A stretch of DNA of 35,730 nt from a virus. Positions 2,206 to 32,114 of this stretch are shown here, piece by piece (within the stretch, counting starts at the first letter, position 1; every line of letters begins with the position of its first letter). The position numbers and the translations under genes were made by a program. Under the pieces are notes generated by a model. That model did no database searches. It was given only the letters and a program-made list of their open reading frames with translations, and was not told the origin of the DNA. The DNA lies in IMG/VR virus record IMGVR_UViG_3300032291_003450, positions 1 through 35,730 of that record, one strand, 5' to 3'.

Positions 2206-4499
2206 TGGCTAAGGTAAGAGGCGTACCGCGTTCTTTCGTAGATGGCAAGGGAGTACCGGGGCAGTACACAACTGACCCGGCGGTAGCACCTGCCTCCCAG
2301 GTTGCAGAAATTGGAAAGTCTATCGACAAGGCAAAGAGACTTTCTCGAGGACAGGTAGAGCCTGGAAGAATGCCGCAAGCTGGCATTGCCGTAAAGAATG
2401 TTGCGTCAGCTGCTAAGGTTCGTGGGGAGTCGAGGACGCCAGCTCCATCCTCTGTTCTCAACTCCGGAATTGCTGGCGGATCCCCTATATCGACTTCACC
2501 TACAAAGGTCAACTCATCGTCCGGCGGCCGCGGAACTCCAATAAAGAAGAACTACACCCCTCTTCAAATGGACAAGCTTACAGAGTCCCAGTCAAATTCT
2601 GTAACAATGTTCAAGAAGTCTCTGGAGATGCAGAACGTCAATCCGGAAGAGCACGAAGAGTTCAAGCTGTACGGAGAGATACTTACACGAAAGCAGCAGC
2701 TGGAGCCGGAGCAGAACCGACTCCGCAGCATCTTCCGTCGCTTCGACAGGATGTACCATCCAGATACTATCACGCTAGGAGGCGCTGACCATTGGGCTGA
2801 AGACCCGAGCGCCCGCCTGGCAGGCCGCGCCCACGTGTCGGTAAACGTGCATGCAGCATACGTAAACATCCCGTCTTCCCTACAGGCTGTAGTCCCGGTT
2901 ATCCACTATGTACCAGAGGCGCCGGACGAGGAGTCCCGGGCAAACGCGTCGAACCGAGAGCGGCTATTCTTTGCCTGGTGGCACGAACAGAACATGGACC
3001 TTAAGCTGGAGACCGCAGCCCTTACCAAGAGCCTGTATGGATATACTGCGGCCAAGGTGTATTGGGACGCAAATCTGAAGATGCCTTCAGTAAACATCAT
3101 AGAGCAGCCAGAAAACCTATACATGGGGTTCGGCAACTCAGACTACACCCGCCTAGACTGGGCCCTGTACTGCTATGGCCTATCTCCTCAAGCTGTAAAA
3201 GAGGACTTTGACATCGACATTGTCCCAGTTAAGCAGGGTGAGAAGTGGTACGGATATTCACACGCCGGAACTCACGATGACCCGCTTGGGACCGTATACC
3301 AGAATCAGTTCGAGAGAAACCCTCTCCGCCGGGAGACTGTCTACGAACAGCTCCAGGTTGAGGTGTACGACTATTGGTACAAGGTTCCAACGTCTGCCGG
3401 AAAGCCGCCGATGGTATGGAATGCAATATACGTTGGAAACACCCTAGTAAGCCACACGCGGCACCCAGAATACGCCGGCACAATCCCTTACATCATGGTC
3501 CAGAACGGCAAGGTTCCTGGCAGCCCATACGGTAAGCCTGAGCTATACGATGTGGAGCAGCTGCTCCGTGAAAAGGATGAGAGAATTACAAACCAGGCCC
3601 AGATGATCCAGTCTGTGGTCGGCGGGCAGATGTGGCAGCTCATCGGTGCCGAGGCGCCGGACGAGGTTCCGCCTAATGCTCTGCCAAAGCCTAACAAGGT
3701 TGCGGCCCCAGGACCGGGAAACGAGCTACGAGCACTGCAGCCGTTCATCCCACAGTTCCAGATTGAGGACTACAACAAGCGTATCGACCGGGAAATCGCA
3801 GTGGTAACCGGACTCAATGACTTGCTCCTTGGCCTTGCGCCGACAAGCGTACTTGGTTCATCGAAGGCCATTGCGTCTCTCATTGCAAACTATGAGTCAC
3901 GAATTGCTCCAAAGCGCAAGCTGTTCTACCAGTGGATTAAAGACGTTTGGATGCTATGCGGGCGAGTATGGTCTACCAAAGACAAGGCGATGGCCGCTAT
4001 TTTTGACAGCCAGTACCGAATCGACGTAATTCCGCCTGAGCTTACGCCTCGAGACACACTCGAGCTTGCTCAGACTGCAATCAACCTGGTACAGAACCGC
4101 ATCTGGAGCGCAGAACGCGCAATGGATAGAGTTGGAGTTGAGGACCCAGAGGGCGAGCTAGAGATTATTCGCGACGAGCAGACTGACGCAACTGTCAACC
4201 CTGCCGCAGTGCTAACAATGGCAAACCTTCTTCAGACGTTCCAGGCCCTACAGGCCCAGGGCGTACAGCTTCAACAGCTACAGGGGCAGCAACAGCAGGC
4301 TCAGGAGCAAATCCAGGCCCAGCAGCAGTCCCTTAACGCATCTAGGACACTTAACCCACCCCTCACAGCTGCTCCAGGAATGACCAGCTTTGAGAACGCG
4401 GCTAACGCTCCTCAGGAGTCCATGCCGGAAAACGCGGAGGCTGGAGTTCAGCTTCCTATGGACCTAGAAGCACCTCTAGAGAATGGGAGTGAGCAATAA
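2205..4499 (+). CDS. Portal protein
   Basis: The portal forms the ring at one capsid vertex through which DNA enters and leaves. The 764-residue protein directly follows TerL with a one-base stop/start overlap (TAATG). Its middle part has the usual portal pattern: an N-terminal arm, an F-R-R-F-D-R-M-Y-H-P segment, then a conserved V-N-V-H-A-A-Y-V-N-I-P-S stretch and long helices near G-L-N-D-L-L-L-G-L-A-P-T. The last 100 residues are very rich in glutamine and alanine and are probably a disordered or coiled tail inside the capsid. The N-terminal 120 residues are rich in Ser/Pro/Gly. It is longer than most siphovirus portals and nearer the size seen in short-tailed phages. Confidence 0.9.
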   Translation: MAKVRGVPRSFVDGKGVPGQYTTDPAVAPASQVAEIGKSIDKAKRLSRGQVEPGRMPQAGIAVKNVASAAKVRGESRTPAPSSVLNSGIAGGSPISTSPTKVNSSSGGRGTPIKKNYTPLQMDKLTESQSNSVTMFKKSLEMQNVNPEEHEEFKLYGEILTRKQQLEPEQNRLRSIFRRFDRMYHPDTITLGGADHWAEDPSARLAGRAHVSVNVHAAYVNIPSSLQAVVPVIHYVPEAPDEESRANASNRERLFFAWWHEQNMDLKLETAALTKSLYGYTAAKVYWDANLKMPSVNIIEQPENLYMGFGNSDYTRLDWALYCYGLSPQAVKEDFDIDIVPVKQGEKWYGYSHAGTHDDPLGTVYQNQFERNPLRRETVYEQLQVEVYDYWYKVPTSAGKPPMVWNAIYVGNTLVSHTRHPEYAGTIPYIMVQNGKVPGSPYGKPELYDVEQLLREKDERITNQAQMIQSVVGGQMWQLIGAEAPDEVPPNALPKPNKVAAPGPGNELRALQPFIPQFQIEDYNKRIDREIAVVTGLNDLLLGLAPTSVLGSSKAIASLIANYESRIAPKRKLFYQWIKDVWMLCGRVWSTKDKAMAAIFDSQYRIDVIPPELTPRDTLELAQTAINLVQNRIWSAERAMDRVGVEDPEGELEIIRDEQTDATVNPAAVLTMANLLQTFQALQAQGVQLQQLQGQQQQAQEQIQAQQQSLNASRTLNPPLTAAPGMTSFENAANAPQESMPENAEAGVQLPMDLEAPLENGSEQ

Positions 4500-7147
4500 T
4501 GGCTATCAGGACTAAGCGACGAGCTCGTTTTCGACGGGCCACATCAGGGACGCAGAACCTAACCCTGCTCATTTACAACATTCTCAAGGAGCAGCAGGCC
4601 GCACAAAAAAGCGCACTACTTTCTGCCTTCGACGCAAACATGGCCAGCGCCTCGTACGACTCCACGTATGGGGGCCAGCCGGTAGACAGGGCGTCTGTAG
4701 AGGCATGGTACGCCCAGGCAATCGCCGCGTACCCAGAGGGCACTACCGAACGAGACAGGCTATCCGCCGAGCTGGCAGAGTTTAGAACCAGGGCAGTGGC
4801 TAAAGAGATGGACGTTTACGGCAAAGCGTATCAGGATGGAACTTACGCATTCGGAGAAAAGGTTGACTTCCAGTCATACATGTCCTTCCTTAGAGACGCC
4901 AGAAACGGTACGGACGACCCAGAGCTTAAGCAAAAGTACTTGACAGAAGAGTTTATTGTAAACTTCAACGACATCAATGACGACATGCTTGCGAAGGGCG
5001 CAAGCTCGTCATCTCTTCTTTCATTCTACAGGCGACAGCTAAACATTGCCAAGGAGCAGGGAATTGGAAATGAGAACGTTAGAAAAATAGAACGATACAT
5101 AACACAGGCCGCAAAGCAGGCCGCTGCAGATGGAAAGCGTGAGGCCCAGGAAAAGGCAGGCAAGATACTGTCCAAGAGGACTGGTGAAGTTGCTAATGCA
5201 ATTGCTAGCGCAATCGACGCATCTGCCAACGCCGGGAATATCAGCGGACAGGCAGCATACGAGCTTAAGGCACTCACTCCGATGAAGCTAGTAAACGCCT
5301 TCCTAAAGATGGATCCATCTATGAAAGCGTCTATTCTTCGATCCGGAACCCTTGCTGGGGTAGAATTGAACGGAGAGAACATTAGCGGACAGGGCATCTT
5401 TGACTACGTCAATGACACCCGAGATGAGCTTAAGACCTATTCCAATGCGGACTGGGTTGACATCGACACCAGGACCTACCTTCGCGGTATCCTGTCCGAG
5501 TTCGACCGAACAATTTTGGCCGGAACAGACCTTCTAACCAAAACGGAAATGGCTGCGGACGCAGGTGACGCGGCAAGGTTTAACAGCGCCAAGGGCCTGG
5601 GGAACCCTGTTGTAAATGTCGAGTCCTATAAAAACCTAGCTCAGTCCCTTAGTGATCCTTCGCTTGGTGACGCAGTAGGCGCTGGGTCAGTTGCACTTCT
5701 AAATGGGCTTGTGCCAAATCCAGATCAATTTGATGGGAAAAAGTACCTGTCAGAGCTCACGCCGATAGAGGCTGAACAGCTGGCCGGAACATTCTCTGGA
5801 GAGCTTTTTATTTCTGGCAACCGCCAGGCCGTAGTAATGGGAATCATTTCTGACTACTCCGGGGTGAATAAGATTCAGACAGGGGGGTCCTACCTTGAGC
5901 TGACAATCGACCCGAACAGCGGCCAGCCAATTGTCCAGGTTACCGACCAAAAGAAGCCTGGCAGAATGGTGTATCTGTATTCTACCGAACTAGAGGGTGG
6001 TGGAAGGGTTACCTCGGCTGTTCAGCAAGTACCATCAAATATCGTTGACGGAAACGGAACTACCGTAGGACAGGTTGTCCTGGAAATCGATAGACAGGGT
6101 AATATAAACCGCTCTGTCATAACCGATGACCAATACAAGATCGACTACGACGACTACGAAATATTCCTAGATTCACAGGGTATTAATCCTCAGCAAGATG
6201 CAGACGGCAATTTTGTCTTTGCAAACACATCTGGAATATACAGCGGCGAGGCTATGAAGGTTGACCCGAGATTTACAAAGTATGTCCCAGAGTCCAAATG
6301 GAATGGTGTTCTGCTTGGGGCAAACTCAAAGGAAGCAGAGGAGGATATCATAAACGATATCTCCTCTCTCGCTTACACAACCCCGGGAGGCCCTGCAGCA
6401 ATTTCATTCGAAATTGACGATCAGGGTAATAACGTTGCTAGGGTTAACGACCCAGTTCTTGTAGCTGCAAGACTTGGACTTACTGAGTCAGACCTTAATC
6501 AGATAATGAAAGCAACTTCAGCGGGAGGTCAAGGGTCATTTGGCAGCAAGGTTACCGCGGCGGCCGGAGTCAAGTTCTTTAGGTCTATGGAGGCAAACCA
6601 GAATCGAGTTGGAAGCAACAAGCCGCTTGATCAATCAGAACTGGAGCAGCTCAGAGCACGGGGACAAATGGCCGTTGCGCAGTATGAGCAGAACAAGGCA
6701 AAGGCAGAACAGGACAAGTATCTGGACCCACTTCGAACTGCTGCTAACTTCGTCTTTCCCCCCGCGAGTTTTGCAATAGACGCTGCACAGTCAGCGTACA
6801 ACTTTGTGACTCAAACTCCGGCTGAGGAAAAAGCATTCAAGTCTGCAGTCAGCCTTGGCGCTTTCTCTGGTCCAAAGTATGCTCAGTCAGCAACAACAGG
6901 AAGCACCGCCTCTGACCCGTCAGAGTATTTCTTCCGGTACACGCAGACGTTGCCAACAGCTACGCCTACTACCGGAACTGGGCTTTCTACGTACATGAGC
7001 ACTCTTGCGGAGCCAAAGAAGGTAACCACAACGACACCTCGTCAAACGTTCACCCCTTCTGAGATACAGCAATCATTCAATCAGTACCGAGCAGACGAGC
7101 GTAAGCCTCTTAATATATCAACAAGCACATCGACTGTGAGGAAGTAA
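4499..7147 (+). CDS. Large virion protein of unknown function (882 aa)
   Basis: I do not recognise the family. The protein has a very basic start (R-T-K-R-R-A-R-F-R-R), a helical, alanine-rich first half without membrane segments, and a beta-rich middle (about residues 420-600) with many Asp/Gly turns. A short hydrophobic stretch lies near residue 750 (A-A-N-F-V-F-P-P-A-S-F). The C-terminal 100 residues are rich in Thr and Ser. It starts on the last base of the portal stop and ends on the first base of the next large gene, so all three are coupled. The place between portal and scaffold suggests a virion component, possibly internal or ejected with the DNA. Confidence 0.75.
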   Translation: MAIRTKRRARFRRATSGTQNLTLLIYNILKEQQAAQKSALLSAFDANMASASYDSTYGGQPVDRASVEAWYAQAIAAYPEGTTERDRLSAELAEFRTRAVAKEMDVYGKAYQDGTYAFGEKVDFQSYMSFLRDARNGTDDPELKQKYLTEEFIVNFNDINDDMLAKGASSSSLLSFYRRQLNIAKEQGIGNENVRKIERYITQAAKQAAADGKREAQEKAGKILSKRTGEVANAIASAIDASANAGNISGQAAYELKALTPMKLVNAFLKMDPSMKASILRSGTLAGVELNGENISGQGIFDYVNDTRDELKTYSNADWVDIDTRTYLRGILSEFDRTILAGTDLLTKTEMAADAGDAARFNSAKGLGNPVVNVESYKNLAQSLSDPSLGDAVGAGSVALLNGLVPNPDQFDGKKYLSELTPIEAEQLAGTFSGELFISGNRQAVVMGIISDYSGVNKIQTGGSYLELTIDPNSGQPIVQVTDQKKPGRMVYLYSTELEGGGRVTSAVQQVPSNIVDGNGTTVGQVVLEIDRQGNINRSVITDDQYKIDYDDYEIFLDSQGINPQQDADGNFVFANTSGIYSGEAMKVDPRFTKYVPESKWNGVLLGANSKEAEEDIINDISSLAYTTPGGPAAISFEIDDQGNNVARVNDPVLVAARLGLTESDLNQIMKATSAGGQGSFGSKVTAAAGVKFFRSMEANQNRVGSNKPLDQSELEQLRARGQMAVAQYEQNKAKAEQDKYLDPLRTAANFVFPPASFAIDAAQSAYNFVTQTPAEEKAFKSAVSLGAFSGPKYAQSATTGSTASDPSEYFFRYTQTLPTATPTTGTGLSTYMSTLAEPKKVTTTTPRQTFTPSEIQQSFNQYRADERKPLNISTSTSTVRK

Positions 7148-10100
7148 TGGGATACATAGGATCTTCTGGCGGATCAGGCGGGTACACGCCCAGGCCTTCC
7201 GTCAGCCTACCAAGGCAGAAGGCTCCTGAGCCTGAGCGAATAGAAGCCAACCTAGACCCGTCCACCCCGGTGGACACAGTATTTGGTGGAATTGGCAGTC
7301 TATTCACAGGAGTTGTCGGGGCGGGAGTTGGCGTGGCCAAGGCCCTATCCGGAGTTCCTGTTATCGGTGATGTAGGCAAGGCAGTCGCTGGCGGACTCGG
7401 GGCGTTTGGGGAAGTTGGGGCCCAGGGTATACTTCAGGTAAAGGACGTCGCAAAGGCAGGTCTAGACCTAATAAGTATTCCTGGAAAGGCAGTTCAGGCG
7501 GGCGGTGCCGCCTTGAGAGTTTCTGGAGTTTTTGGGGAACAGCCGTCAGACGTAAAGGCAATGCTAAGCAACGGAAAGTCCTTTACAGACGTTGTCGGAA
7601 GCCTAGTCGAGCAAAACCGAGGCTTCAGCGATAATCAGATGGCAAACCTCGGGTGGTCACTGGTTACTGACCCACTAAACTACGTTAACATTTTTGGACC
7701 GGTAGCCAAGGCTGCGTCGGCAGCTAAGCTCGCAAACGTAGAGCGCCAGGCCATCTCTAAGGCGGACGACATATTGGCCGCAACCAAAAGGGGGGCACAG
7801 GTTGCCCCAGAGTACGCTTCCATGGTGGGCAAGCGTCCAGGAGACATCCGTTCGGAGATGCTAGGTAGGTTCATGAATGCAGATGAGGCGGCATTCCTTA
7901 ACCGGTGGAGGGTGGCAGGAAGCCTGTACGACGCAACTCTAGGCAAGGCCGGAAAGGGATTCTCTGCGCTTGTGGATGCAGCACGAGGCCCTGTCCTTGC
8001 AAGTGTTGCCAGATCATTCCAGCAGGCACCAAAGATTGTTTTTGAGGGTCTTGAAAACGCCAACCAGGCCGAACTCGCAACAGCATACGGCCAGTCATTT
8101 GGCCGCGGACTTGTACAGGCTACGGTGTTTTCCGTTTCCAGGATTTTCTCACGTGGAGAAACAAACCTTGGAAGACTGAGGGCAAATGCAGTTATACAGC
8201 GAGTTACTGCCGGCAGGGATAACGGCATCTCCGACGACATTATTGCAAAAGAACTTACCGAAGCCGGACTTGTTTCGGGAGATCAGGCAGGACTTGACAT
8301 AGTCAAGAGAGTGTCCTCTATGGACGACTCCGGACGTAGGCAGTATGTTCGCCAGGTTGCAGACGAGTACTCAGCATCCGCTGTCAAGACTGCCGGCGCA
8401 GCTGCTGGGGGAGATTACAAAAAGCTAATGGAGATAGGCGGGATACGCATCCAGGACACCGTTGACGAGACAACATCGTTCTTGTCCGAGGGATCACGTC
8501 GCTACGCTACACTACCTGTTGAGGCTCAACTTGCCATTTTCCTGGACAAGTCCCGGGCGGCAGTTAGCCCTTACGGGCGAGACGCAGTCCGGCGCATGAT
8601 TGGCGGTGAGGTAGTTAGCTCTGGAAGAAACGTTGACGGGATCTTAAGCGAAATTTTCATGAAGGCAAGCCCAGAAGATCAGGCAAGGATGGTGCACATT
8701 GCAGAGATTGCTGCATACGGCGCTCAGGCAACAAGCACAGCCACGATTAGGAACGCACTAAAGGCAGCATCTCTTTCTGACAAGGCCAAGCTAGAGGAAA
8801 TTATTGGTAAGCCGATAACAATAGATGCGTTTAACAAGCTTAAGGCCTTGCTTGGCACAGATGCCGGCAAGAAACTTCTTAGACTTAACCTTGTGCGAGC
8901 CAACACGCTTACAGAAGACAGGATTACTGCGCTACTAGACGTAGCGGACGGACTTCGAAACGGAGAGAAATTCAAGCGTACGGCTTTGGCCGCATTCCCC
9001 GATGACATGAGGGACGAACTAGCTAAGGCAACCTCTCTTGATGGTCTTGCCCAGGTTGTGATTAAGTTCTTCCCAGATATTAGCGTAACAATGGGCAAGT
9101 CTGCTCAGGGCGAATGGTCCTCCATAGGGTCAGCACTGACAGATATTCTAGATAGCGGAAACTTCGTTAGGACTGCATCTGCTGAAGAGCTTGCCTCACT
9201 TAAGTCCGCGCTGGATGCAATTTCGCCGGGGGCCGGTGCTGCGGCTATAAAGTCAATTGAGGCCGGCAGGTATTCATTCGGATTTTCACCTGAGGGCGGG
9301 GTAGTTCGACGTGCTGTTGCAAGAGGAACTGACGACGGGTTTGAGGTTGTTAACGAGCCAATTAGCCCGTTTGTAGACAACATCGACGATTTTGTTGAGG
9401 GCATCGACGAGTCAGCTGACGCTTTCCGACTTTCTGGATTGCGTAGGCTGTCGAACCGATGGCTTCGTCCAATCACGTCCGGCCAGGTTCAGCAACAGCA
9501 AATCGATAATACGATTAAAGTCGTCCTGGATGGAGGAGGCTCAATCCTCCAGGCGAAAAAGCTATACACCACAATCAACGAGATTGCACTTAGGAGAAAG
9601 ATTTCCCCACGTGCCCTTATATCAGACGAGAACGCGCTTCGCAAGGCAATGCAAGACTCCCTGGGGGACAAGTTTGACGATGTGATATCAAAGTCAGACC
9701 CCCGATTCAAGAGGCCCGGAGTTGTTCTTATGAAGATGTTTGCCGGAAGCTCGGACGTTGTGGGGTCTGCCCAGGCTTTAACGGGAAAGCTAAAGACCAA
9801 GCTTCCCCAGCTAGCAATAATTACAGATAACTGGTACCCGCAAATCAAATTCAAGCTCAACCCTTTGTTTTACATACAAGAGGCCATCGAGTCTCCGTTC
9901 TTCAATTACCTACGAGGAATTCAGCGACAGATAAACGGCGGAGAGTACGTCGTTACCCATGGGTGGGCAAAGTATTTGCCATTTGCTAGAACACCGCTTG
10001 GTGGGCGACTAGGCCTATCTAGGGCCATAGGGCCAGAAGTAAAGCCTGAGCTTGCGGCACTAAGCCTAGGAGCTGGTGACTCTGCCCTACGGGCAGACCT

Positions 10101-11613
10101 TGACATTGCCGAGGCTGTCATTTTCCTTCAGGGCAAAGAGGCCGGAGCAATCATGGCAACCGAGTATGGTCGAACCATGGCCGGGGCCATTCGTGAATCT
10201 CTAAACCGCGGTTCGAACAACTTCATTAAAACAGTCATGAACCCGTACCCAATGAAGAACATGAAGAAGCTGGAAATGACATACGCCATTGCAGCTGAGG
10301 AGTTTGGAAACAGGCTACGATATTCAATGCCAGAGCAATGGGTTGCAATGACAAAGACATACCAAACTTCAAACCCACGAATGGTAATGGCGTACTTCAT
10401 GCAAGACGTTACAAGGGGATGGGTAAACCCAACCAAGGTTGTGGACTCGGCCCGGCCCATAGGGTTTGCGTTTGCAGGCAAGGGATCTATAGATCTTTCC
10501 AGCAAGCTTGACTCAGAGATTTCCAGGATAGCTGCAATGCCACGAGGAACTGTCGAGCAAATGTCCGCTGTCCGAGTAGCTCTCATGGAGGTCCGGGGTG
10601 GCCTCTTGGCAGATTCGGCGGCCGTAGGAAACGAGGTCACAGCAGTAGAAAAAGCCCTTGTGAAGCTCATAAACGCCGACGAATCTGCAGATATCGACAA
10701 GCTAATAGAGTCCCTGTCCGGAGCGTCCTCGACAGCCTCAAGGGTGGCGCAGGAGTCTGTGAACGACTTCAACCTTCTTGACGGGGCCATGCAAAAGCTC
10801 ATTGCTGGAGGGAAGAGCGAAAGGCTGGCCGCCCTGGGGGGTTTCCCCCGCGAGAAGATTGCGGCATCTCTGGCCAAACACCGATCATACGGGACGGACT
10901 TCCCTGGGATGGAATCGGTTATGGCGAAGTTGCGCTCTGGTAAAGACCTTGACACATTGGACGTACGTGCGCTAGAATTGGGCCTAAATACCCTGCTAGA
11001 CGCCCACGGTCCGGAAGAGATGCTGCTGCATGCCTTCCGTCAGTCCCTGAGGGACGCGAACAACGCGGCCAACAGGATACACTTCTACAACCCAAACCGA
11101 AGCGCTTTCGAGCGTTCCCTAAATCACCCGTACCTGGCTTTTTACCCACTATCATACATGGTTGGCAAGGTGATTCCGGAATTCTCTCGGGCCATGTTCT
11201 TCAAGTTCCCGTTTACTAACGTTACCCGGCCATTTGCCGGATACGAAATTGTACACGAGGTTTCAGACTTCATAGCTATGAAGGTTGAAGAGGATCCAAA
11301 GTTTGCGGATGTTCTTCTAAAGTCTGACTTCCTCTTTATTCTTAAGCAGCTATTTCCTGGTGTCCCAGGGGATATCTCTGTGTCAGCCCCGCGATGGGTA
11401 AACCGATCATACGCCCAAATCCAGCGCTCTCAGCGCCCGGCACAGGGCGGACGTGATCAGGCTTCTTACGACCCAGGATATTCCATTAGAGCCATTGCTG
11501 ATCAGGCAAAGGATCAGGGTCTCTTCGGAAATGTTGAGTTATTCGGCGGAGCTGTCACTGAAGCATGGGACTTCCTTGGCGGAGCTGTCGATTTTAATGA
11601 GTCTGGCAAATAG
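7147..11613 (+). CDS. Giant virion protein, candidate internal/ejection protein (1488 aa)
   Basis: This is the longest gene in the window. Near the N-terminus (about residues 40-120) there are several Gly/Ala/Val-rich amphipathic stretches such as G-I-G-S-L-F-T-G-V-V-G-A-G-V that could insert in membranes. A T-D-P-L-N-Y-V-N-I-F-G-P segment follows near residue 175, a pattern I associate with large polyvalent phage proteins. Most of the rest is alpha-helical. The last 200 residues hold an aromatic block (N-H-P-Y-L-A-F-Y-P-L-S-Y-M-V-G-K). No enzyme motif was found. Being before the capsid gene, it is unlikely to be a tape measure in the usual place. A role in DNA ejection is inference. Confidence 0.7.
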   Translation: MGYIGSSGGSGGYTPRPSVSLPRQKAPEPERIEANLDPSTPVDTVFGGIGSLFTGVVGAGVGVAKALSGVPVIGDVGKAVAGGLGAFGEVGAQGILQVKDVAKAGLDLISIPGKAVQAGGAALRVSGVFGEQPSDVKAMLSNGKSFTDVVGSLVEQNRGFSDNQMANLGWSLVTDPLNYVNIFGPVAKAASAAKLANVERQAISKADDILAATKRGAQVAPEYASMVGKRPGDIRSEMLGRFMNADEAAFLNRWRVAGSLYDATLGKAGKGFSALVDAARGPVLASVARSFQQAPKIVFEGLENANQAELATAYGQSFGRGLVQATVFSVSRIFSRGETNLGRLRANAVIQRVTAGRDNGISDDIIAKELTEAGLVSGDQAGLDIVKRVSSMDDSGRRQYVRQVADEYSASAVKTAGAAAGGDYKKLMEIGGIRIQDTVDETTSFLSEGSRRYATLPVEAQLAIFLDKSRAAVSPYGRDAVRRMIGGEVVSSGRNVDGILSEIFMKASPEDQARMVHIAEIAAYGAQATSTATIRNALKAASLSDKAKLEEIIGKPITIDAFNKLKALLGTDAGKKLLRLNLVRANTLTEDRITALLDVADGLRNGEKFKRTALAAFPDDMRDELAKATSLDGLAQVVIKFFPDISVTMGKSAQGEWSSIGSALTDILDSGNFVRTASAEELASLKSALDAISPGAGAAAIKSIEAGRYSFGFSPEGGVVRRAVARGTDDGFEVVNEPISPFVDNIDDFVEGIDESADAFRLSGLRRLSNRWLRPITSGQVQQQQIDNTIKVVLDGGGSILQAKKLYTTINEIALRRKISPRALISDENALRKAMQDSLGDKFDDVISKSDPRFKRPGVVLMKMFAGSSDVVGSAQALTGKLKTKLPQLAIITDNWYPQIKFKLNPLFYIQEAIESPFFNYLRGIQRQINGGEYVVTHGWAKYLPFARTPLGGRLGLSRAIGPEVKPELAALSLGAGDSALRADLDIAEAVIFLQGKEAGAIMATEYGRTMAGAIRESLNRGSNNFIKTVMNPYPMKNMKKLEMTYAIAAEEFGNRLRYSMPEQWVAMTKTYQTSNPRMVMAYFMQDVTRGWVNPTKVVDSARPIGFAFAGKGSIDLSSKLDSEISRIAAMPRGTVEQMSAVRVALMEVRGGLLADSAAVGNEVTAVEKALVKLINADESADIDKLIESLSGASSTASRVAQESVNDFNLLDGAMQKLIAGGKSERLAALGGFPREKIAASLAKHRSYGTDFPGMESVMAKLRSGKDLDTLDVRALELGLNTLLDAHGPEEMLLHAFRQSLRDANNAANRIHFYNPNRSAFERSLNHPYLAFYPLSYMVGKVIPEFSRAMFFKFPFTNVTRPFAGYEIVHEVSDFIAMKVEEDPKFADVLLKSDFLFILKQLFPGVPGDISVSAPRWVNRSYAQIQRSQRPAQGGRDQASYDPGYSIRAIADQAKDQGLFGNVELFGGAVTEAWDFLGGAVDFNESGK
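10949..10978 (+). promoter_or_regulatory. Possible sigma-A type promoter inside the giant gene
   Basis: TTGACA (10949-10954) is followed after 18 bases by TAGAAT (10973-10978). It lies in the coding sequence about 650 bases before the scaffold and capsid genes and could raise their expression. A chance match in a gene this long is possible. Confidence 0.3.
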
Positions 11614-27507: not shown

Positions 27508-27795
27508 ATGAGTGACTTGGAGACACCTGAATGGGCCGATGGGGCCATTTTATATGACGGGTTCGATGATTGCCTAATAGGGTTCGGGACGCAGTTCAAT
27601 CGGCCGGTGGCGATCTACGACTACAACAAGTGCCTCGCCAAGCTTGACTTGCAGTTCCGCGCCGAATGCGAGTACGAAAGCGCATGCGAGTGCGATCACG
27701 ATTTAGAAGCTCAGGAGTGGATGGATTTCAACGTCACCGGTGGTTGGGTTGGTAACCACACTCCAATATTTTTGATCAGCAGCGAGGGCCCGTAG
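27508..27795 (+). CDS. Conserved phage protein of unknown function; stop lies in the tRNA
   Basis: CGGAGG precedes ATG 27508. The product (95 aa) has Y-D-G-F-D-D-C-L-I-G-F-G, then I-Y-D-Y-N-K-C-L-A-K-L and F-N-V-T-G-G-W-V-G-N-H-T-P-I-F. I recall this combination from a small protein that is widespread in phages, without known function. The TAG stop (27793-27795) is the bases at positions 8-10 of the downstream tRNA, so the last ten bases of the gene are shared with the tRNA. Confidence 0.75.
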   Translation: MSDLETPEWADGAILYDGFDDCLIGFGTQFNRPVAIYDYNKCLAKLDLQFRAECEYESACECDHDLEAQEWMDFNVTGGWVGNHTPIFLISSEGP

Positions 27796-27861
27796 CTCAA
27801 CGGTTAGAGCACCGAGCTTATATCTCGGCGGTCCCAGGTTCGAATCCTGGCGGGCCTACCA
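27786..27861 (+). tRNA. tRNA-Ile: tRNA-Ile, anticodon UAU
   Basis: The 76-base cloverleaf is complete. The acceptor stem pairs GGGCCCG (27786-27792) with CGGGCCT (27851-27857), with a G-U pair at the top. The D arm GCTC/GAGC, the anticodon arm CCGAG/CTCGG and the T arm CCAGG/CCTGG with loop TTCGAAT all pair. The anticodon loop CTTATAT gives UAU, which reads AUA isoleucine codons. CCA is encoded (27859-27861). A run of six T follows at 27865-27870 and may end the transcript. Confidence 0.93.
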
Positions 27862-27882
27862 ATCTTTTTTATCCTCGCCTCC

Positions 27883-27891
27883 GTGATAGTA
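27883..27891 (-). promoter_or_regulatory. GTGATAGTA motif copy (minus TACTATCAC)
   Basis: This copy lies between the tRNA and the convergent terminator. The other three copies lie before minus-strand genes. This one points into the antisense of the tRNA and leads to no clear gene. Confidence 0.35.
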
Positions 27892-27915
27892 AGCGTGCCG
27901 ACCTTAATTAGGGGC

Positions 27916-27954
27916 AAAAAAATAGCCGACGCCGCGTGAGCGGCGCCGGCTATT
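27916..27954 (-). terminator. Terminator ending the minus-strand block
   Basis: Arms 27921-27935 and 27940-27954 pair at 14 of 15 positions around GTGA, with an A.C mismatch at 27929/27946. On the minus strand the hairpin is followed by seven U (A run 27916-27922). It starts three bases after the stop of the last minus-strand gene. Confidence 0.85.
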
Positions 27955-27956
27955 CG

Positions 27957-28103
27957 TTACCGTTTTGTGAGTTGTGCTCCGAATACTGCTAAGAAGAATA
28001 CTACTGCAACGATGATACGGAAGGTAATATCTTTATCTCTCCGATACTTCATTTGCGGATCTTCTTCTTTGTTTTGCCAGTATTCGTTCCAATCACTCGG
28101 CAT
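27957..28103 (-). CDS. Small membrane protein, last gene of the minus block (48 aa)
   Basis: The minus-strand ATG is at 28101-28103 with AGGAGA just before it and TAA at 27957-27959. The product begins M-P-S-D-W-N-E-Y-W-Q, then a charged segment, then one membrane span (I-I-V-A-V-V-F-F-L-A-V-F-G-A) and a basic end. It lies 11 bases after the previous gene and just before the terminator. Function is unknown. Confidence 0.7.
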   Translation of the reverse strand: MPSDWNEYWQNKEEDPQMKYRRDKDITFRIIVAVVFFLAVFGAQLTKR

Positions 28104-28114
28104 TGTCTCCTGTT

Positions 28115-28738
28115 CTAATCATCTGATTTCCTTTCTGTGCTTGTTGCATGTACTTGCTGGCTGAAGTGGTCAACCCAGTAGTTGACCTGTGGGTAGACGG
28201 TGTCTTTAAGGAATTCGTCCATTCCTCCCCAGCCTGAAAGTACATATCCCCAGCACGAATCTAGGTGTTCTTCGCATTTCTGATTGCATGTCGTGCAGTC
28301 CCATGACTTGCTGATTACATATCCTACGACATTGCCATTGATGACGCTGTCGAATGTTTTTACTGCGTTCTTGAGAATTGATTCGAGTTCTTCTTTGTCT
28401 GTTACCCCTAGTGCTTCTGATTCTGTAAGCGCAGCAAAGCCGCACTGGCCGCTGTCCCACGGATCGTTGAACGATCCTGTGCTTAGACGCACGACTCCGT
28501 GCGCTAGCATGTATAGCGGCAGCGAGATGACATACTTACCTGAGTCGAGTTCTGCCTGGAACTCGTCCATCGAGTCGCATGTCACATCTGGCTTGATGTA
28601 CTTACCTGTACCTCTACTTCCTATGATAGTGAATGCTTTGTGATTTTCGGCATCTACATCTAGATCTTGGTACACTGCCCATTCGATACCGTGCGCATCG
28701 TTGCGTCCGGACTCTAGGGGCTTATCTGAGAATGCCAT
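28115..28738 (-). CDS. Conserved phage/plasmid protein with PWDSGQ signature (207 aa)
   Basis: ATG 28736-28738 has GGAGGT in front on the minus strand. A longer frame to 28786 lacks a ribosome site. The product has L-S-T-G-S-F-N-D-P-W-D-S-G-Q-C-G-F and later D-S-C-W-G-Y-V. I remember this pair of motifs from a protein found in many phages and mobile elements with no firm function. A C-T-T-C-N-Q-K-C-E-E-H group could bind metal. Its place in a block of small early-type genes suggests an accessory or host-directed role, which is inference. Confidence 0.75.
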   Translation of the reverse strand: MAFSDKPLESGRNDAHGIEWAVYQDLDVDAENHKAFTIIGSRGTGKYIKPDVTCDSMDEFQAELDSGKYVISLPLYMLAHGVVRLSTGSFNDPWDSGQCGFAALTESEALGVTDKEELESILKNAVKTFDSVINGNVVGYVISKSWDCTTCNQKCEEHLDSCWGYVLSGWGGMDEFLKDTVYPQVNYWVDHFSQQVHATSTERKSDD

Positions 28739-28746
28739 GGTACCTC

Positions 28747-28863
28747 CTATCTGAATACTGATTTGATTATGTTTCCTGCAATCCACACTGCTGCACTGAA
28801 TAGCAGCACATTGATTGCTAGTATTGCTGTGAACATTATTCCGTATTTTAATAGGTCAATCAT
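28747..28863 (-). CDS. Very small membrane protein (38 aa)
   Basis: The minus-strand ATG 28861-28863 is preceded by GGAGGT five bases upstream, and the stop TAG is at 28747-28749. The product begins M-I-D-L-L-K-Y-G-I-M and is one membrane span (F-T-A-I-L-A-I-N-V-L-L-F-S-A-A-V) with a basic end. It overlaps the upstream gene by 8 nt, and its stop lies by the ribosome site of the next gene, which is good evidence for a real gene. Confidence 0.7.
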   Translation of the reverse strand: MIDLLKYGIMFTAILAINVLLFSAAVWIAGNIIKSVFR

Positions 28864-29245
28864 TTGCTACCTCCAATTCTTTTCCTTCACTTTTTTGTTC
28901 ATAGATCCAATCTTCTACTAGGTGTTTCGCGATTTCTGTCCAGTCGATTAGGCCCCAGGCGGCTTTTGTGATGTCGCCTATTGGCCCATACGAATGGTTG
29001 AAGTCGCATGATTCGAATGGCTCCATGAACATTTGGTGCGCCCAGTCTTGCAGCCACATTTGTGTTTTGTAGACTAGATCGTCTTTGTCGATCTTTATAG
29101 GTTGATCTTCTGAGTCCGAATAGTCATCGCTGACGATTACATTGATTGCGTCGTTTGCTACTTCATAGAACGATGAATCATTGGTAAGCCATAGATTCAT
29201 GTCCCATGTTTCGTAGTTAGACCAGCCATTGTATTCGTTACACAT
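28856..29245 (-). CDS. YNGWSNYETW-type phage protein, DUF7249-like (129 aa)
   Basis: The N-terminal Y-N-G-W-S-N-Y-E-T-W-D-M-N-L-W-L is a signature I recall from a family of small proteins in phages and plasmids (DUF7249 or a relative). An acidic middle and a helical end with W-L-Q-D-W-A-H-Q-M-F follow. AGGAG lies before the ATG on the minus strand. A very stable UUCG hairpin and a GTGATAGT motif lie just upstream, suggesting that this gene begins its own transcript. Function is unknown. Overall charge is strongly negative, as in some DNA-mimic proteins. Confidence 0.75.
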   Translation of the reverse strand: MCNEYNGWSNYETWDMNLWLTNDSSFYEVANDAINVIVSDDYSDSEDQPIKIDKDDLVYKTQMWLQDWAHQMFMEPFESCDFNHSYGPIGDITKAAWGLIDWTEIAKHLVEDWIYEQKSEGKELEVAND

Positions 29246-29260
29246 ATTATTTCTCCTTTT

Positions 29261-29284
29261 GGGGAGGAGCCGAAGCCCCTCCCC
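29261..29284 (-). other. Very stable UUCG-capped hairpin
   Basis: On the minus strand a 10-base-pair stem (one G-U pair, arms 29275-29284 and 29261-29270) is closed by UUCG. No U tract follows. The ribosome site of the next gene begins four bases later. It could end the upstream transcript in part or protect the 5' end of the next one. Confidence 0.65.
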
Positions 29285-29286
29285 AT

Positions 29287-29295
29287 GTGATAGTT
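29287..29295 (-). promoter_or_regulatory. GTGATAGTT motif (minus AACTATCAC), variant copy
   Basis: The motif overlaps the stop codon of the upstream minus gene (29294-29296) and lies just before the UUCG hairpin. It differs from the other three copies at the last base. Confidence 0.4.
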
Positions 29296-29725
29296 ACTTT
29301 ACTCCCAACTTCTTGAGTGTTGCAGCCGGCTTCGCTGCACGCTGGTATGCGACAGCGAATGTGACTGTGCTCTCTAGATAGAGATCACCGAAGTCAACAT
29401 TGCGCTCGTCGCAATTGATTGACTGCCAGTAATCGCTAGAGTATCCAAGTGCTGCTGCGATTGTTGATCGTGCTCCGAAGTTGTCATACTTCTGCAGATC
29501 TTTGATTGACTCGTGTAGATCGCTCGCGAACTTTACAGCTGCCATAACTCCTGGCCTGTGATAGGAATTCTTACCCAATTGCCTGCCAAGTTCTGTGACT
29601 GCTGCTTCCATTACATCCGAGATTATGCTTAGCGACACTCCTGCGCTGATGTCAATGTTAAGATCCTTGACATCTGCCAGACGCGGTGGAACTGACTTTA
29701 ACTTCTTCTTGATTACCTTAGCCAT
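29294..29725 (-). CDS. Unknown helical protein (143 aa)
   Basis: ATG 29723-29725 has GGAGG before it on the minus strand. The longer frame to 29857 is not supported. The product starts with a basic stretch (V-I-K-K-K-L-K-S-V) and is then helical with V-T-E-L-G-R-Q-L-G and F-A-S-D-L-H-E-S-I. It ends in a basic tail. No family was recognised. It overlaps the previous minus gene by 8 nt. Confidence 0.65.
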   Translation of the reverse strand: MAKVIKKKLKSVPPRLADVKDLNIDISAGVSLSIISDVMEAAVTELGRQLGKNSYHRPGVMAAVKFASDLHESIKDLQKYDNFGARSTIAAALGYSSDYWQSINCDERNVDFGDLYLESTVTFAVAYQRAAKPAATLKKLGVK

Positions 29726-30164
29726 TGTTTTCCTCCTTCTTGCGCGATACAATGTATGCGCCTGTTCCGAAGTCATACTCAATATGGTATGATTCATCGA
29801 ATCCCTTATACTCACTATATGTGTCGTTGTATTCGAAGACTCTTTGTAGCATGGCATTCAAGAATGACCATCTCTTGTCTTCTTCTACTCCGTCACCATC
29901 GATGATCCTGTCCATTTCTTTACCCGCTAGTGTTGCTCCTCTGATCAAGTTCATCTGAACTTTACGCAGGTCACGCAGCACTTCTGGGTTGAAACCCACA
30001 AGTTCATCAAGTCGGTCAACGATGCTGTCGAGTTCCTCGTATACATTATTGCCTTGTGCTTCCGCATCGTTTGCATAAGAACTTGCGCTCTCTGCCGCGT
30101 TGCTTGCGTCGTATGCGCTACTCCTCGCTGAGTCGAGAAGATCTTTTAATGTTTGAATATTCAC
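29718..30164 (-). CDS. Unknown protein with N-terminal coiled coil (148 aa)
   Basis: The start is a GTG at 30162-30164 on the minus strand with AGGAGA upstream. The first 50 residues are rich in Ala, Ser, Asp and Asn and could form a coiled coil. The end has E-Y-D-F-G-T-G-A-Y-I-V and a charged tail. It overlaps the previous small gene by 47 nt, which is long but fits the tight packing here. No function is known. Confidence 0.65.
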   Translation of the reverse strand: MNIQTLKDLLDSARSSAYDASNAAESASSYANDAEAQGNNVYEELDSIVDRLDELVGFNPEVLRDLRKVQMNLIRGATLAGKEMDRIIDGDGVEEDKRWSFLNAMLQRVFEYNDTYSEYKGFDESYHIEYDFGTGAYIVSRKKEENNG

Positions 30165-30339
30165 TGGTCTCTCCTATTCTGTCCAGGTTGAAGTCCTGAA
30201 CGCTACTTATTGCTCTTGCTTGTTCTGATTCGCATTGGTCACATAAACCATATCCGAACCCTTCTGAATAGAACCCTGTTTCCACTGGATCGAACCGGAT
30301 CTCACAATCCGCGCACTGAACCAGTTTCTTCTTTGCCAT
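30118..30339 (-). CDS. Small zinc-ribbon protein (73 aa)
   Basis: C-A-D-C near the start and C-D-Q-C about 25 residues later form a zinc ribbon, with G-F-G-Y-G-L before the second pair. I chose ATG 30337-30339 because AAGGGGGTGA lies five bases before it. A GTG three codons earlier overlaps that site. It may bind nucleic acid or a host regulator, but this is not shown. Confidence 0.7.
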   Translation of the reverse strand: MAKKKLVQCADCEIRFDPVETGFYSEGFGYGLCDQCESEQARAISSVQDFNLDRIGETSEYSNIKRSSRLSEE

Positions 30340-30610
30340 TCTTATCACCCCCTTCCCTTAGTAATTCTAGAAGTTGCCATGTAATTACGCATTCTGTATC
30401 ATTGCATTCGTATACATAGCAATTTAGTGCTGATGGCTTGCCAGGCCATTTGAACACTGCAAGGAATGGCTCGCTCCATACGCGCATTGTAAAGTCTTCT
30501 CCTTCTAGAAGTGACTTTAGTTCTTCTACTGCACCGCGTGCTGTTACGAACGCTTCGTGATAATCTGGCATGCATCCTGGTAGGCTGATCTCGCTATGAT
30601 AGTGGTTCAC
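30302..30610 (-). CDS. Unknown phage protein, start uncertain (102 aa)
   Basis: The product contains H-Y-H-S-E-I-S-L-P-G-C-M-P-D, a pattern I recall near the N-terminus of a small actinophage protein, which favours GTG 30608-30610. The ribosome site there is weak. ATG 30668-30670 has AGGAG ten bases before it and would add 20 residues but overlap the upstream gene by 77 nt. The rest has E-E-L-K-S-L-L-E-G and W-S-E-P-F-L-A-V-F-K-W. Function is unknown. Confidence 0.55.
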   Translation of the reverse strand: MNHYHSEISLPGCMPDYHEAFVTARGAVEELKSLLEGEDFTMRVWSEPFLAVFKWPGKPSALNCYVYECNDTECVITWQLLELLREGGDKNGKEETGSVRGL

Positions 30611-30866
30611 TGCAGGACTCAACTGTTTCCCATCCCAGTTCTTCGTGTTCCCAATCGTACTTGTGTCCATTTTCGTCAATCTCCTTTGCTGCTAGACTAT
30701 TGCTTAGCGCATACACTATTGTGCTGCGGTATACATCCTGGTGCTGTACTACTCTGATTCGCTTTTCGTATGTCGGATGGCAGGCTTCGCATGGCCCTGG
30801 GCATCCGTGCTTTTCTGTCTCTGCTTCAAATTTTGTTAGATTGAATTCCTTCGGCTGATGATACAT
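30594..30866 (-). CDS. Small Cys-cluster protein (90 aa)
   Basis: The segment H-G-C-P-G-P-C-E-A-C-H gives three cysteines and two histidines near residues 20-29 that could bind zinc. The second half is acidic, with Y-D-W-E-H-E-E-L-G-W-E. GGAG precedes the ATG on the minus strand. It overlaps the genes on both sides. No family was recognised. Confidence 0.65.
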   Translation of the reverse strand: MYHQPKEFNLTKFEAETEKHGCPGPCEACHPTYEKRIRVVQHQDVYRSTIVYALSNSLAAKEIDENGHKYDWEHEELGWETVESCSEPLS

Positions 30867-31083
30867 ATTGCAACTCCTTTCTTACTGATTTGATTATATC
30901 GTCTACTAGTGCTAGGCATCCTTCTCTGTCGTTCTGGGTCATTACCCACATTGACATGCAGATCTCCCAGCACATTTGGCAGTAGCTGCCTTTTACTGCT
31001 CCCCAGTACCCATGCCATAGTACCATTTTGCTTGTCTTGAAGTTGTCCTGGCATCTGTTGCATTTGCTTCTGATTTCTACCAT
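30826..31083 (-). CDS. Small zinc-finger protein (85 aa)
   Basis: C-N-R-C near the start and C-Q-M-C about 27 residues later suggest a treble-clef or ribbon zinc site, with W-H-G-Y-W-G between. I chose ATG 31081-31083, which overlaps the upstream stop in the order ATGGTAG and so is probably coupled. A GTG at 31120-31122 has AAGGA eight bases before it and is the main alternative. Function is unknown. Confidence 0.6.
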   Translation of the reverse strand: MVEIRSKCNRCQDNFKTSKMVLWHGYWGAVKGSYCQMCWEICMSMWVMTQNDREGCLALVDDIIKSVRKELQYVSSAEGIQSNKI

Positions 31084-31229
31084 AGGATTGGCTGGCCGTT
31101 GGCCGCTGCGTGCTTCTTGCACATGTGCAGTCCTTTCTTTGTGTTGAAGTCATGCGTGTAAACTACTACATATCCCAGCGCCCTGCATGACTTGTAAACG
31201 CATAGGTATGTCTTGTACTTGCTACTCAT
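31077..31229 (-). CDS. Very small Cys-rich protein (50 aa)
   Basis: The minus-strand ATG 31227-31229 has a perfect GGAGG five bases upstream. The frame extends to 31451, but the extra part is the hairpin-rich spacer, so it is not coding. The product has C-V-Y-K-S-C and a later M-C-K-K-H, giving three cysteines and a histidine for a zinc site. A GTGATAGTA motif lies about 12 bases before the ribosome site. Confidence 0.65.
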   Translation of the reverse strand: MSSKYKTYLCVYKSCRALGYVVVYTHDFNTKKGLHMCKKHAAANGQPILW

Positions 31230-31246
31230 GAATCCTCCTTGCCCTT

Positions 31247-31255
31247 GTGATAGTA
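31247..31255 (-). promoter_or_regulatory. GTGATAGTA motif (minus TACTATCAC)
   Basis: On the minus strand TACTAT would be a TANNNT -10 box whose transcript would start next to the ribosome site of the 50-residue gene. No -35 match is present 16-18 bases upstream. The extended form GTGATAGTAGAGCG is nearly the same as the copy at 32068. Confidence 0.5.
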
Positions 31256-31278
31256 GAGCGTCGCCGCTCCGTTTTTTA

Positions 31279-31303
31279 CCGCTGCCGCGATTAGCGGCAG
31301 CGG
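31279..31303. other. Hairpin in the spacer between minus-strand gene groups
   Basis: CCGCTGCCGC (31279-31288) pairs with GCGGCAGCGG (31294-31303) around GATTA. A T run lies on its plus-strand 5' side, so it does not form a standard terminator on either strand. Confidence 0.5.
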
Positions 31304-31310
31304 CTCTTGC

Positions 31311-31333
31311 GAGCAGTTGCGCAGCAACTGTTC
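31311..31333. other. Second hairpin in the spacer
   Basis: GAGCAGTTGC (31311-31320) pairs with GCAACTGTTC (31324-31333) around GCA, with one G-U pair. It lies between the terminator at 31354 and the hairpin at 31279. Confidence 0.5.
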
Positions 31334-31342
31334 CTTTGGGTG

Positions 31343-31381
31343 GAAAAACAAACCCGCCCAGCCGCGTGAGCGGCTGGGCGG
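31343..31381 (-). terminator. Terminator after the SSB-like and membrane genes
   Basis: CCGCCCAGCCGC (31354-31365) pairs perfectly with the arm 31370-31381 around GTGA. On the minus strand the hairpin is followed by a U-rich tract (GUUUGUUUUU, 31344-31353). It ends the first minus-strand transcript. Its core and GTGA loop resemble the terminator at 27921-27954. Confidence 0.8.
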
Positions 31382-31401
31382 TTGTTGCTAGACCTGCCGG
31401 C

Positions 31402-31590
31402 CTAGATGCGTCGGTAGTGATTGCGTAGTCGGTCATTGATCTCATCTCCAATCCATAGGGATAAGCCCAATGCGCCGATTCCTGCTAGCACTCCGAATAC
31501 ACCGCCGAGTACGGAGCCGAATGCTCCGTACCCAGCGGCTGCGCCTAGCATGATAGACGCTAGTGTTAGGATCTTGTCTCCTGCGTTCAT
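31402..31590 (-). CDS. Small glycine-rich membrane protein (62 aa)
   Basis: GGAGG lies before ATG 31588-31590 on the minus strand, and the start overlaps the SSB-like stop by 4 nt. Two glycine-rich membrane stretches (A-S-I-M-L-G-A-A-A-G-Y-G-A and G-V-F-G-V-L-A-G-I-G-A-L-G-L) are followed by a charged end with R-L-R-N-H-Y-R-R. The layout suits a small membrane-disturbing or holin-like protein. Its link to an SSB-like gene is unexplained. Confidence 0.7.
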   Translation of the reverse strand: MNAGDKILTLASIMLGAAAGYGAFGSVLGGVFGVLAGIGALGLSLWIGDEINDRLRNHYRRI

Positions 31591-31925
31591 GCCTGATCCT
31601 CCTCACTTACGCCGTCTACAACGATGTTGGTATAGTACACTGGCTTACCACCTGCGACATCTTTCTTCTTGATGTCAATGTGTCCAGTGAAGTCTACCAC
31701 TTTGCCAGCCTTCGCCTGCAGCGCCTCGGCGACCGTGCCGTTTGCGATGCAGCGGATGTAGCGCACCTTGGTATCTTCACCTTCGCCGCTGGTGGCAGCA
31801 ACTGTGAAGGTTAGGCGTGCTGTACCGTACTGCGACTGTTCCTTGCTGACATACTGGTACGATGGTGTCGCACCGTCTGCTCGGAACTGCTGGAACTTAC
31901 CCGAGAGCCTAACCGTGTTAGCCAT
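31587..31925 (-). CDS. SSB-like OB-fold protein (112 aa)
   Basis: ATG 31923-31925 has AAGGAG before it. The product begins V-R-L-S-G-K-F and has T-A-R-L-T-F-T-V-A-A-T, then V-R-Y-I-R-C-I-A-N-G-T-V-A-E and V-V-D-F-T-G-H-I-D, then Y-Y-T-N-I-V-V-D-G-V. This is the strand order of bacterial SSB proteins. It ends in an acidic S-E-E-D-Q-A tail but lacks the usual D-D-I-P-F. It would bind single-stranded DNA. It is the first gene of the minus-strand block, after the long non-coding region. Confidence 0.7.
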   Translation of the reverse strand: MANTVRLSGKFQQFRADGATPSYQYVSKEQSQYGTARLTFTVAATSGEGEDTKVRYIRCIANGTVAEALQAKAGKVVDFTGHIDIKKKDVAGGKPVYYTNIVVDGVSEEDQA

Positions 31926-31950
31926 TTCTGCTAACTCCTTTTGTTGTGTC

Positions 31951-31960
31951 CAGGTACCTG
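31951..31960. repeat. CAGGTACCTG palindrome upstream of the SSB-like gene
   Basis: A perfect 10-base palindrome lies 25 bases before the SSB-like start. Related palindromes with AGGT/ACCT arms lie at 32648 and 32674 on the other side of the divergent region. Confidence 0.45.
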
Positions 31961-32067
31961 CTAGGAAGTCCCTTGCGGGGGCTGGACAACGAGAGTATCC
32001 ATCGGTTGTCAAGGGCGCCGCCCGCCAGGGCGGAGCCGCGTTTGTACGAGGAGCTGTGAAGCGACGA

Positions 32068-32076
32068 GTGATAGTA
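32068..32076 (-). promoter_or_regulatory. GTGATAGTA motif upstream of the SSB-like gene
   Basis: The extended form GTGATAGTAGAGTG matches the copy at 31247 in 13 of 14 bases. It lies about 140 bases upstream of the SSB-like start. Confidence 0.5.
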
Positions 32077-32114
32077 GAGTGCTCCGGCTTGTCCGGCGGG
32101 AGCGTGAGCGACTA

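Follow-up and report, generated by a model that had tools for sequence, protein, structure and literature searches.

A short strand-specific motif as a probable regulatory recognition site of the leftward gene block in an uncultured phage lineage

What role is played by an eight-base word that recurs, always in the same orientation, at the gaps of one small gene block in a phage genome? The question is raised by the record IMGVR_UViG_3300032291_003450 of an uncultured phage, which was analysed over its whole length of 35,730 nucleotides (nt; "the window"). The word reads GTGATAGT on the plus strand and ACTATCAC on the minus strand, and it is confined to a leftward gene block (27957..31925, minus strand), with a motif-bearing region of about 4.2 kb. 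The four copies listed by an initial annotation of the sequence are all exact and lie where it had placed them, at 27883..27890, 29287..29294, 31247..31254 and 32068..32075, each being ACTATCAC on the minus strand. As that annotation also stated, two copies have 13 of 14 bases in common (those at 31247 and 32068, GTGATAGTAGAGCG and GTGATAGTAGAGTG), and all copies lie between genes or on a stop codon: at 29287 the overlap with the TAA stop of gene 29294-29725 amounts to one base, and the other three copies are noncoding. The analyses described below point to ACTATCAC as a probable recognition site in the regulation of the leftward block, rather than an ordinary promoter box.

The motif is clearly enriched. 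The two strands of the window together contain six exact copies versus 0.72 expected (0 of 100 shuffles), and ACTATCAC/GTGATAGT is the sole 8-mer with four noncoding copies. Noncoding DNA amounts to 4.3% of the window according to a hand-curated gene list, and the presence of four of the six exact copies in this fraction corresponds to a binomial P of 4.9e-5; this value depends on the curated genes, and a crude automatic gene caller, with spurious open reading frames (ORFs) covering the gaps, counted only two of the four gap copies as noncoding. The preference for gaps was also seen over a probably complete genome, that of the relative G006, in which all four gap copies are present and three further copies lie in genes, though genes occupy about 95% of the DNA. 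Within the block of the window the strand bias is complete, with four copies of ACTATCAC on the minus strand versus 0.15 expected and none on the opposite strand, and the shorter word ACTATCA is found six times on the minus strand versus 0.77 expected. In the plus-strand block, the word occurs at about chance level.

Further occurrences that the initial annotation had not listed lie within genes. Exact copies are present at 2766 (minus strand) and 24236 (plus strand), which were considered as extra sites and rejected as coding coincidences, because the relative G004 keeps the same amino acids with other, synonymous codons. Two copies of the variant ACTATCAT are found inside minus-strand genes of the block, one at 28623..28630 (minus) inside gene 28115-28738, and one at 30596..30603 (minus) at the beginning of another such gene, where it forms part of H-Y-H codons and where all seven genomes have ACTATCAY. 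Of 24 single-base variants tested, ACTATCAT was the only one that was clearly enriched (12 versus 1.15, summed over non-independent genomes), which indicates a sharp specificity. In three genomes, modestly more copies lay within genes than codon shuffling would predict (P 0.004-0.015), the count for the window being inflated by one copy that was counted twice through a gene overlap (the true number is 2, not 3).

Relatives of the phage were found by scans with DnaB, SSB, DUF7249, a small leftward gene and the gene preceding the tRNA, and these are contigs of the same lineage. Leftward-block DNA is present in six of them (G006, G001, G007, G005, L179 and L181), and a further one, L214, covers the tRNA side only; the conservation counts given here include the window, and the genomes are related and thus not independent. 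The blocks of seven genomes contain three to six copies of ACTATCAC in the leftward sense, versus 0.1-0.2 expected, and never a copy in the opposite sense. The copy at 32068 is kept in four genomes, that at 31247 in five, that at 29287 in seven (as ACTATCAT in G005) and that at 27883 in eight. The core of the motif remains constant while its flanks diverge between the related phages. In an alignment of eight genomes from the tRNA-Ile to the terminator region, the motif at 27883 is the sole invariant block of eight bases in the trailer, and at 31247 the upstream sequence of G007 and G005 is largely different, yet TACTATCAC is kept, with GGCAAGGAGG close behind. The ends of the G006 contig abut within ...CACTAT/ATCATTGG..., and G006 thus probably represents a full circular genome of 42.4 kb. 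In a ninth contig, that of G004, one end (L093:1-10) falls exactly inside the 27883 copy (GTGAT), possibly by coincidence; the leftward block of G004 is missing.

The gap copies are coupled to breaks in transcription, and all internal gaps of the block of at least 40 nt, as defined by the curated genes, contain one. The first gene of the block is SSB-like (31587..31925, minus; weak matches to SSB, with E values of 2.6e-5 in Pfam and 1e-4 for PHROG 44), and the copy at 32068 lies in the leader upstream of it, about 140 nt from the start codon. The copy at 31247 sits in a gap of 170 nt, after an internal leftward terminator (31354..31381, minus; 12-bp stem and T-rich tail) and immediately before GGGCAAGGAGG, the ribosome-binding site (RBS) of gene 31077-31229. 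In L179 and L181, the homologue of this gene is preceded by neither gap nor terminator, and there is no motif copy either, which supports the reading as a protein site that is developed below. The copy at 29287, which overlaps the TAA stop, is followed by a UUCG-capped hairpin, and its distance to a start codon is about 40 nt. At the far end of the block, a small gene ending at 27957 is followed by the last terminator (27916..27953, minus; hairpin 27953-27922, then a T7 tail of T residues), which was read from the sequence and is conserved in relatives. Just past it, facing convergent genes, the copy at 27883 lies between this terminator and a tRNA-Ile gene (27786..27861, plus; anticodon TAT, found with ARAGORN and present also in the tested relatives whose DNA covers the locus), and is antisense to the tRNA transcript; on the plus strand it is GTGATAGT in the 3' trailer of the tRNA (27862..27915), together with a C-rich CCTCGCC box. 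The initial annotation was thus correct in that three copies lie before minus-strand gene groups, and the fourth, at 27883, precedes no gene; neither a promoter nor an operator in front of a gene accounts for it.

Several structures were seen around the copies. In the stretch that separates the motif from the internal terminator (31270-31340), two hairpins seem to keep their pairing in G007 via compensatory changes (for example, CGCTGCCGC/GCGGCAGCG versus AATTACCGC/GCGGTAATT, in an alignment read by eye) and are a possible structured RNA. The SSB leader contains a small hairpin (32084-32096, CCGG-NCAAG-CCGG), the pairing of which is kept in G001 (CGGG/CCCG) and which lies, in the leftward sense, nine bases upstream of the copy at 32068. 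The UUCG-capped hairpin at 29256-29285, GGGGAGGGGCTTCGGCTCCTCCCC, is located before an RBS, has no T tail and is kept in seven genomes; perhaps it is an mRNA stabiliser. A second recurrent noncoding 8-mer of the minus strand, CGCTCACG, is present at 27934-27941, 31364-31371 and 32102-32109, and thus coincides with the loop region in two of the leftward terminators and is found once more in the SSB leader. In a scan for known RNA families, no family other than the tRNA scored above its cut-off.

The sharp core, the strand bias, the restriction to one unit and the coupling to transcription breaks lead us to infer that a trans-acting factor recognises the motif and acts on leftward transcription. 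We favour the explanation that ACTATCAY on the minus strand is an asymmetric, lineage-specific DNA site of an orientation-dependent regulator protein, of the operator or road-block ("stoperator") type, and assign to it a probability of roughly 0.4; a protein site is preferred because orientation-dependent road-block sites of phages are experimentally known (PMC9283540). One trans-acting regulator would then act on the leftward transcription unit through ACTATCAY, with a site in each gap of the block and one more immediately beyond its end. The leftward transcripts are presumed to be early, and the bound regulator might shut down leftward transcription or stop a head-on run into the tRNA/DnaB operon. 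It should be noted that the protein nature of the reader, its action on DNA and the direction of its effect are all three inferred. Confidence in the protein site is limited because no reader was identified: among the proteins scanned, a subset of the ORFs, none was recognisable as a repressor or as another kind of DNA-binding regulator, a weak counterargument in view of the many uncharacterised leftward genes. The leftward block also contains zinc-ribbon-like ORFs. Two further observations fit the protein site poorly. A conserved GGCRAGG-like part follows the motif at a variable distance, which would not be expected for a rigid DNA site, and the copy at 27883 tends to resemble the others more than they resemble each other, which would not be expected for equal binding sites.

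The initial annotation had proposed that TACTAT on the minus strand could be a -10 box or, as no -35 match is present, that the motif may depend on a phage factor or be an operator. The latter part is compatible with all findings, and the lack of a -35 element was borne out, as no copy has a sigma-70-type promoter match (-35/-10 hexamers with a spacing of 16-18 bp). The -10 box, by contrast, did not hold. In the gaps ACTATCAC is invariant except for one C-to-T change, and at the first T of TACTAT all four bases (T, C, A, G) are found among the conserved copies while the downstream CAC is fixed, the reverse of the conservation of a -10 element (positions 1, 2 and 6). In addition, the bases upstream of the copies at 27883 and 31247 are not conserved, copies are found inside genes, and transcription starting leftward from 27883 would enter the tRNA gene in antisense. 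A T7-like promoter (CACTATAGGGAGA resembling CTCACTATCAC..GG) was also set aside as unlikely, as no polymerase was found: the scanned proteins include no single-subunit RNA polymerase, a pattern search revealed no motif B in two large ORFs of 882 and 1488 amino acids, and the tail-region ORFs of G006 were read by eye only. A non-standard promoter, at which host RNA polymerase and a phage factor would use ACTATCAC as the only element, is unlikely, even if the copy at 31247 lies after terminators and right before an RBS, where a new start would be needed. In the late promoters of T4, TATAAATA, one 8-bp element can suffice and forms the whole site, as it would here. However, these promoters are AT-rich whereas the present core is moderately GC-rich, and in this phage there are copies without a following gene and no sigma-like factor was found; moreover, the variable T, the in-gene copies, the missing -35 element, the start directed against the tRNA and the negative polymerase searches all count against a promoter of this type as well.

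The position of the 27883 copy on the other strand suggests a different reader, namely RNA. The trailer transcript (plus strand, from 27862 to the terminator), released by tRNA processing, could pair through its seed GUGAUAGU and its C-rich boxes with ACUAUCAY in leftward mRNAs; at 31247 the pairing would span the RBS, and leftward mRNAs would be silenced when the DnaB operon is on. We consider such an antisense RNA, which was deduced from sequence, rather unlikely, and the support for it is suggestive only. The 27883 copy is located in the tRNA trailer in all genomes covering it, its core never varies, and C-rich boxes of the form CCTYGCC usually adjoin it (CCCCTCCCCC in G005); the remaining conserved copies of the block are in the sense of leftward mRNAs, and the tolerated variant ACTATCAT is compatible with G-U pairing. 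The most similar pair of copies includes that at 27883 in seven of seven genomes, and it ranks first as a hub by identity in five of seven, a pattern to be expected if a single RNA has many targets, and not if the copies are equal binding sites, but wobble-aware scoring did not improve this signal. The predicted duplexes are strong, with energies of -43.7 kcal/mol with its own 31247 target in the window and -54.3 kcal/mol with the 29287 target in G005, and flank shuffling resulted in best-of-sites P values of 0.04 in the window and in G006 and 0.0075 in G005, which are marginal overall, whereas they were 0.4-0.5 in G007, L179 and L181, none of these genomes being independent. Own and cross duplex energies differ clearly for the 31247 site only, several of the predicted folds have the seed base-paired and it is not reliably open, no conserved fold of the trailer that consistently exposes it was found, an A.C mismatch interrupts the GGCRAGG part, and a number of target copies are remote from all start codons. 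If the antisense RNA were real, switching on the replication operon would switch the leftward genes off via the trailer RNA, and a phage tRNA gene would gain a second, regulatory use. Alternatively, the motif could act in cis within leftward mRNAs, with ACUAUCAC being cut by a sequence-specific endoribonuclease or bound by an RNA-binding regulator. The strand specificity, the occurrence in genes as well as in gaps, the excess of in-gene copies over the codon shuffle and the hairpins adjoining copies would fit, but the copy at 27883 lies behind a strong terminator and would rarely be transcribed leftward, and no candidate nuclease was identified, so that we regard this as quite improbable. Chance or simple descent, that is, short matches retained through the kinship of the genomes, would account for in-gene copies such as those at 2766 and 24236, and the relatives are indeed not independent; as an explanation of the motif it is highly improbable and already contradicted by the enrichment and by the invariance amid diverged flanks.

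A protein site of the favoured kind has its closest counterparts in layout in two groups of mycobacteriophage repeats, the L5 stoperators and the Cluster K start-associated sequences (SAS), and ACTATCAC is a member of neither. The stoperators of Cluster A mycobacteriophages, the sites of the L5 repressor, are orientation-dependent road-block sites known from experiments, and they share with the present motif a short asymmetric repeat, an orientation tied to the direction of transcription and a location in short intergenic spaces (PMC9283540). In this respect ACTATCAC agrees with the stoperators, being asymmetric and located in gaps in a single orientation relative to transcription. The differences are that stoperators are 13-mers of another sequence, compared with a core of eight bases here, that more than twenty sites are spread genome-wide, compared with about four to eight in one block (PMC9283540), and that a cognate repressor exists, whereas no repressor-like match was obtained here among the proteins scanned. 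The SAS have the consensus GGGATAGGAGCCC, lie 3-7 bp from start codons and contain the RBS, and their function was unknown when they were described (PMC3203893). They resemble the present motif in being asymmetric and in one orientation, in their association with non-structural genes only, in the wide upstream gaps and in that they sometimes overlap the stop codon of the gene upstream (PMC3203893). However, ACTATCAC with its loosely placed GGSRAGG differs in sequence from GGGATAGGAGCCC and is not closely linked to start codons, the RBS being adjoined by the copy at 31247 only and no gene following that at 27883, and therefore it does not belong to the SAS. With respect to the antisense RNA, the 3' external transcribed spacer of the E. 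coli leuZ tRNA reportedly sponges small RNAs, according to work of Lalaouna in 2015. It, too, is the trailer of a tRNA with the potential to act through base pairing, with the difference that the predicted partners here are the phage's own mRNAs.

The motif appears to be restricted to this lineage. Phages that share the gene layout but are more distant, the DnaB of which is about 50% identical, have neither the motif nor a clear analogue, and when 2.9 million viral contigs were scanned with the extended motif, there were, beyond the known members, only isolated matches and no further group with repeated copies. The terminase had no match among 50,697 phage records, and the group is thus without cultured relatives in that collection. 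In bacterial genomes, the matches of DnaB came from many different phyla and did not exceed 46% identity. The two large ORFs mentioned above occupy 4499-11613, between genes of the portal region and the capsid region, and have no Pfam or PHROG match.

Asymmetric repeats in the gaps of phage genomes are known from a few cultured groups of actinophages. ACTATCAC represents a sharply defined and conserved example in uncultured phages, and its limited size, with four sites and one operon, makes it amenable to a direct test.

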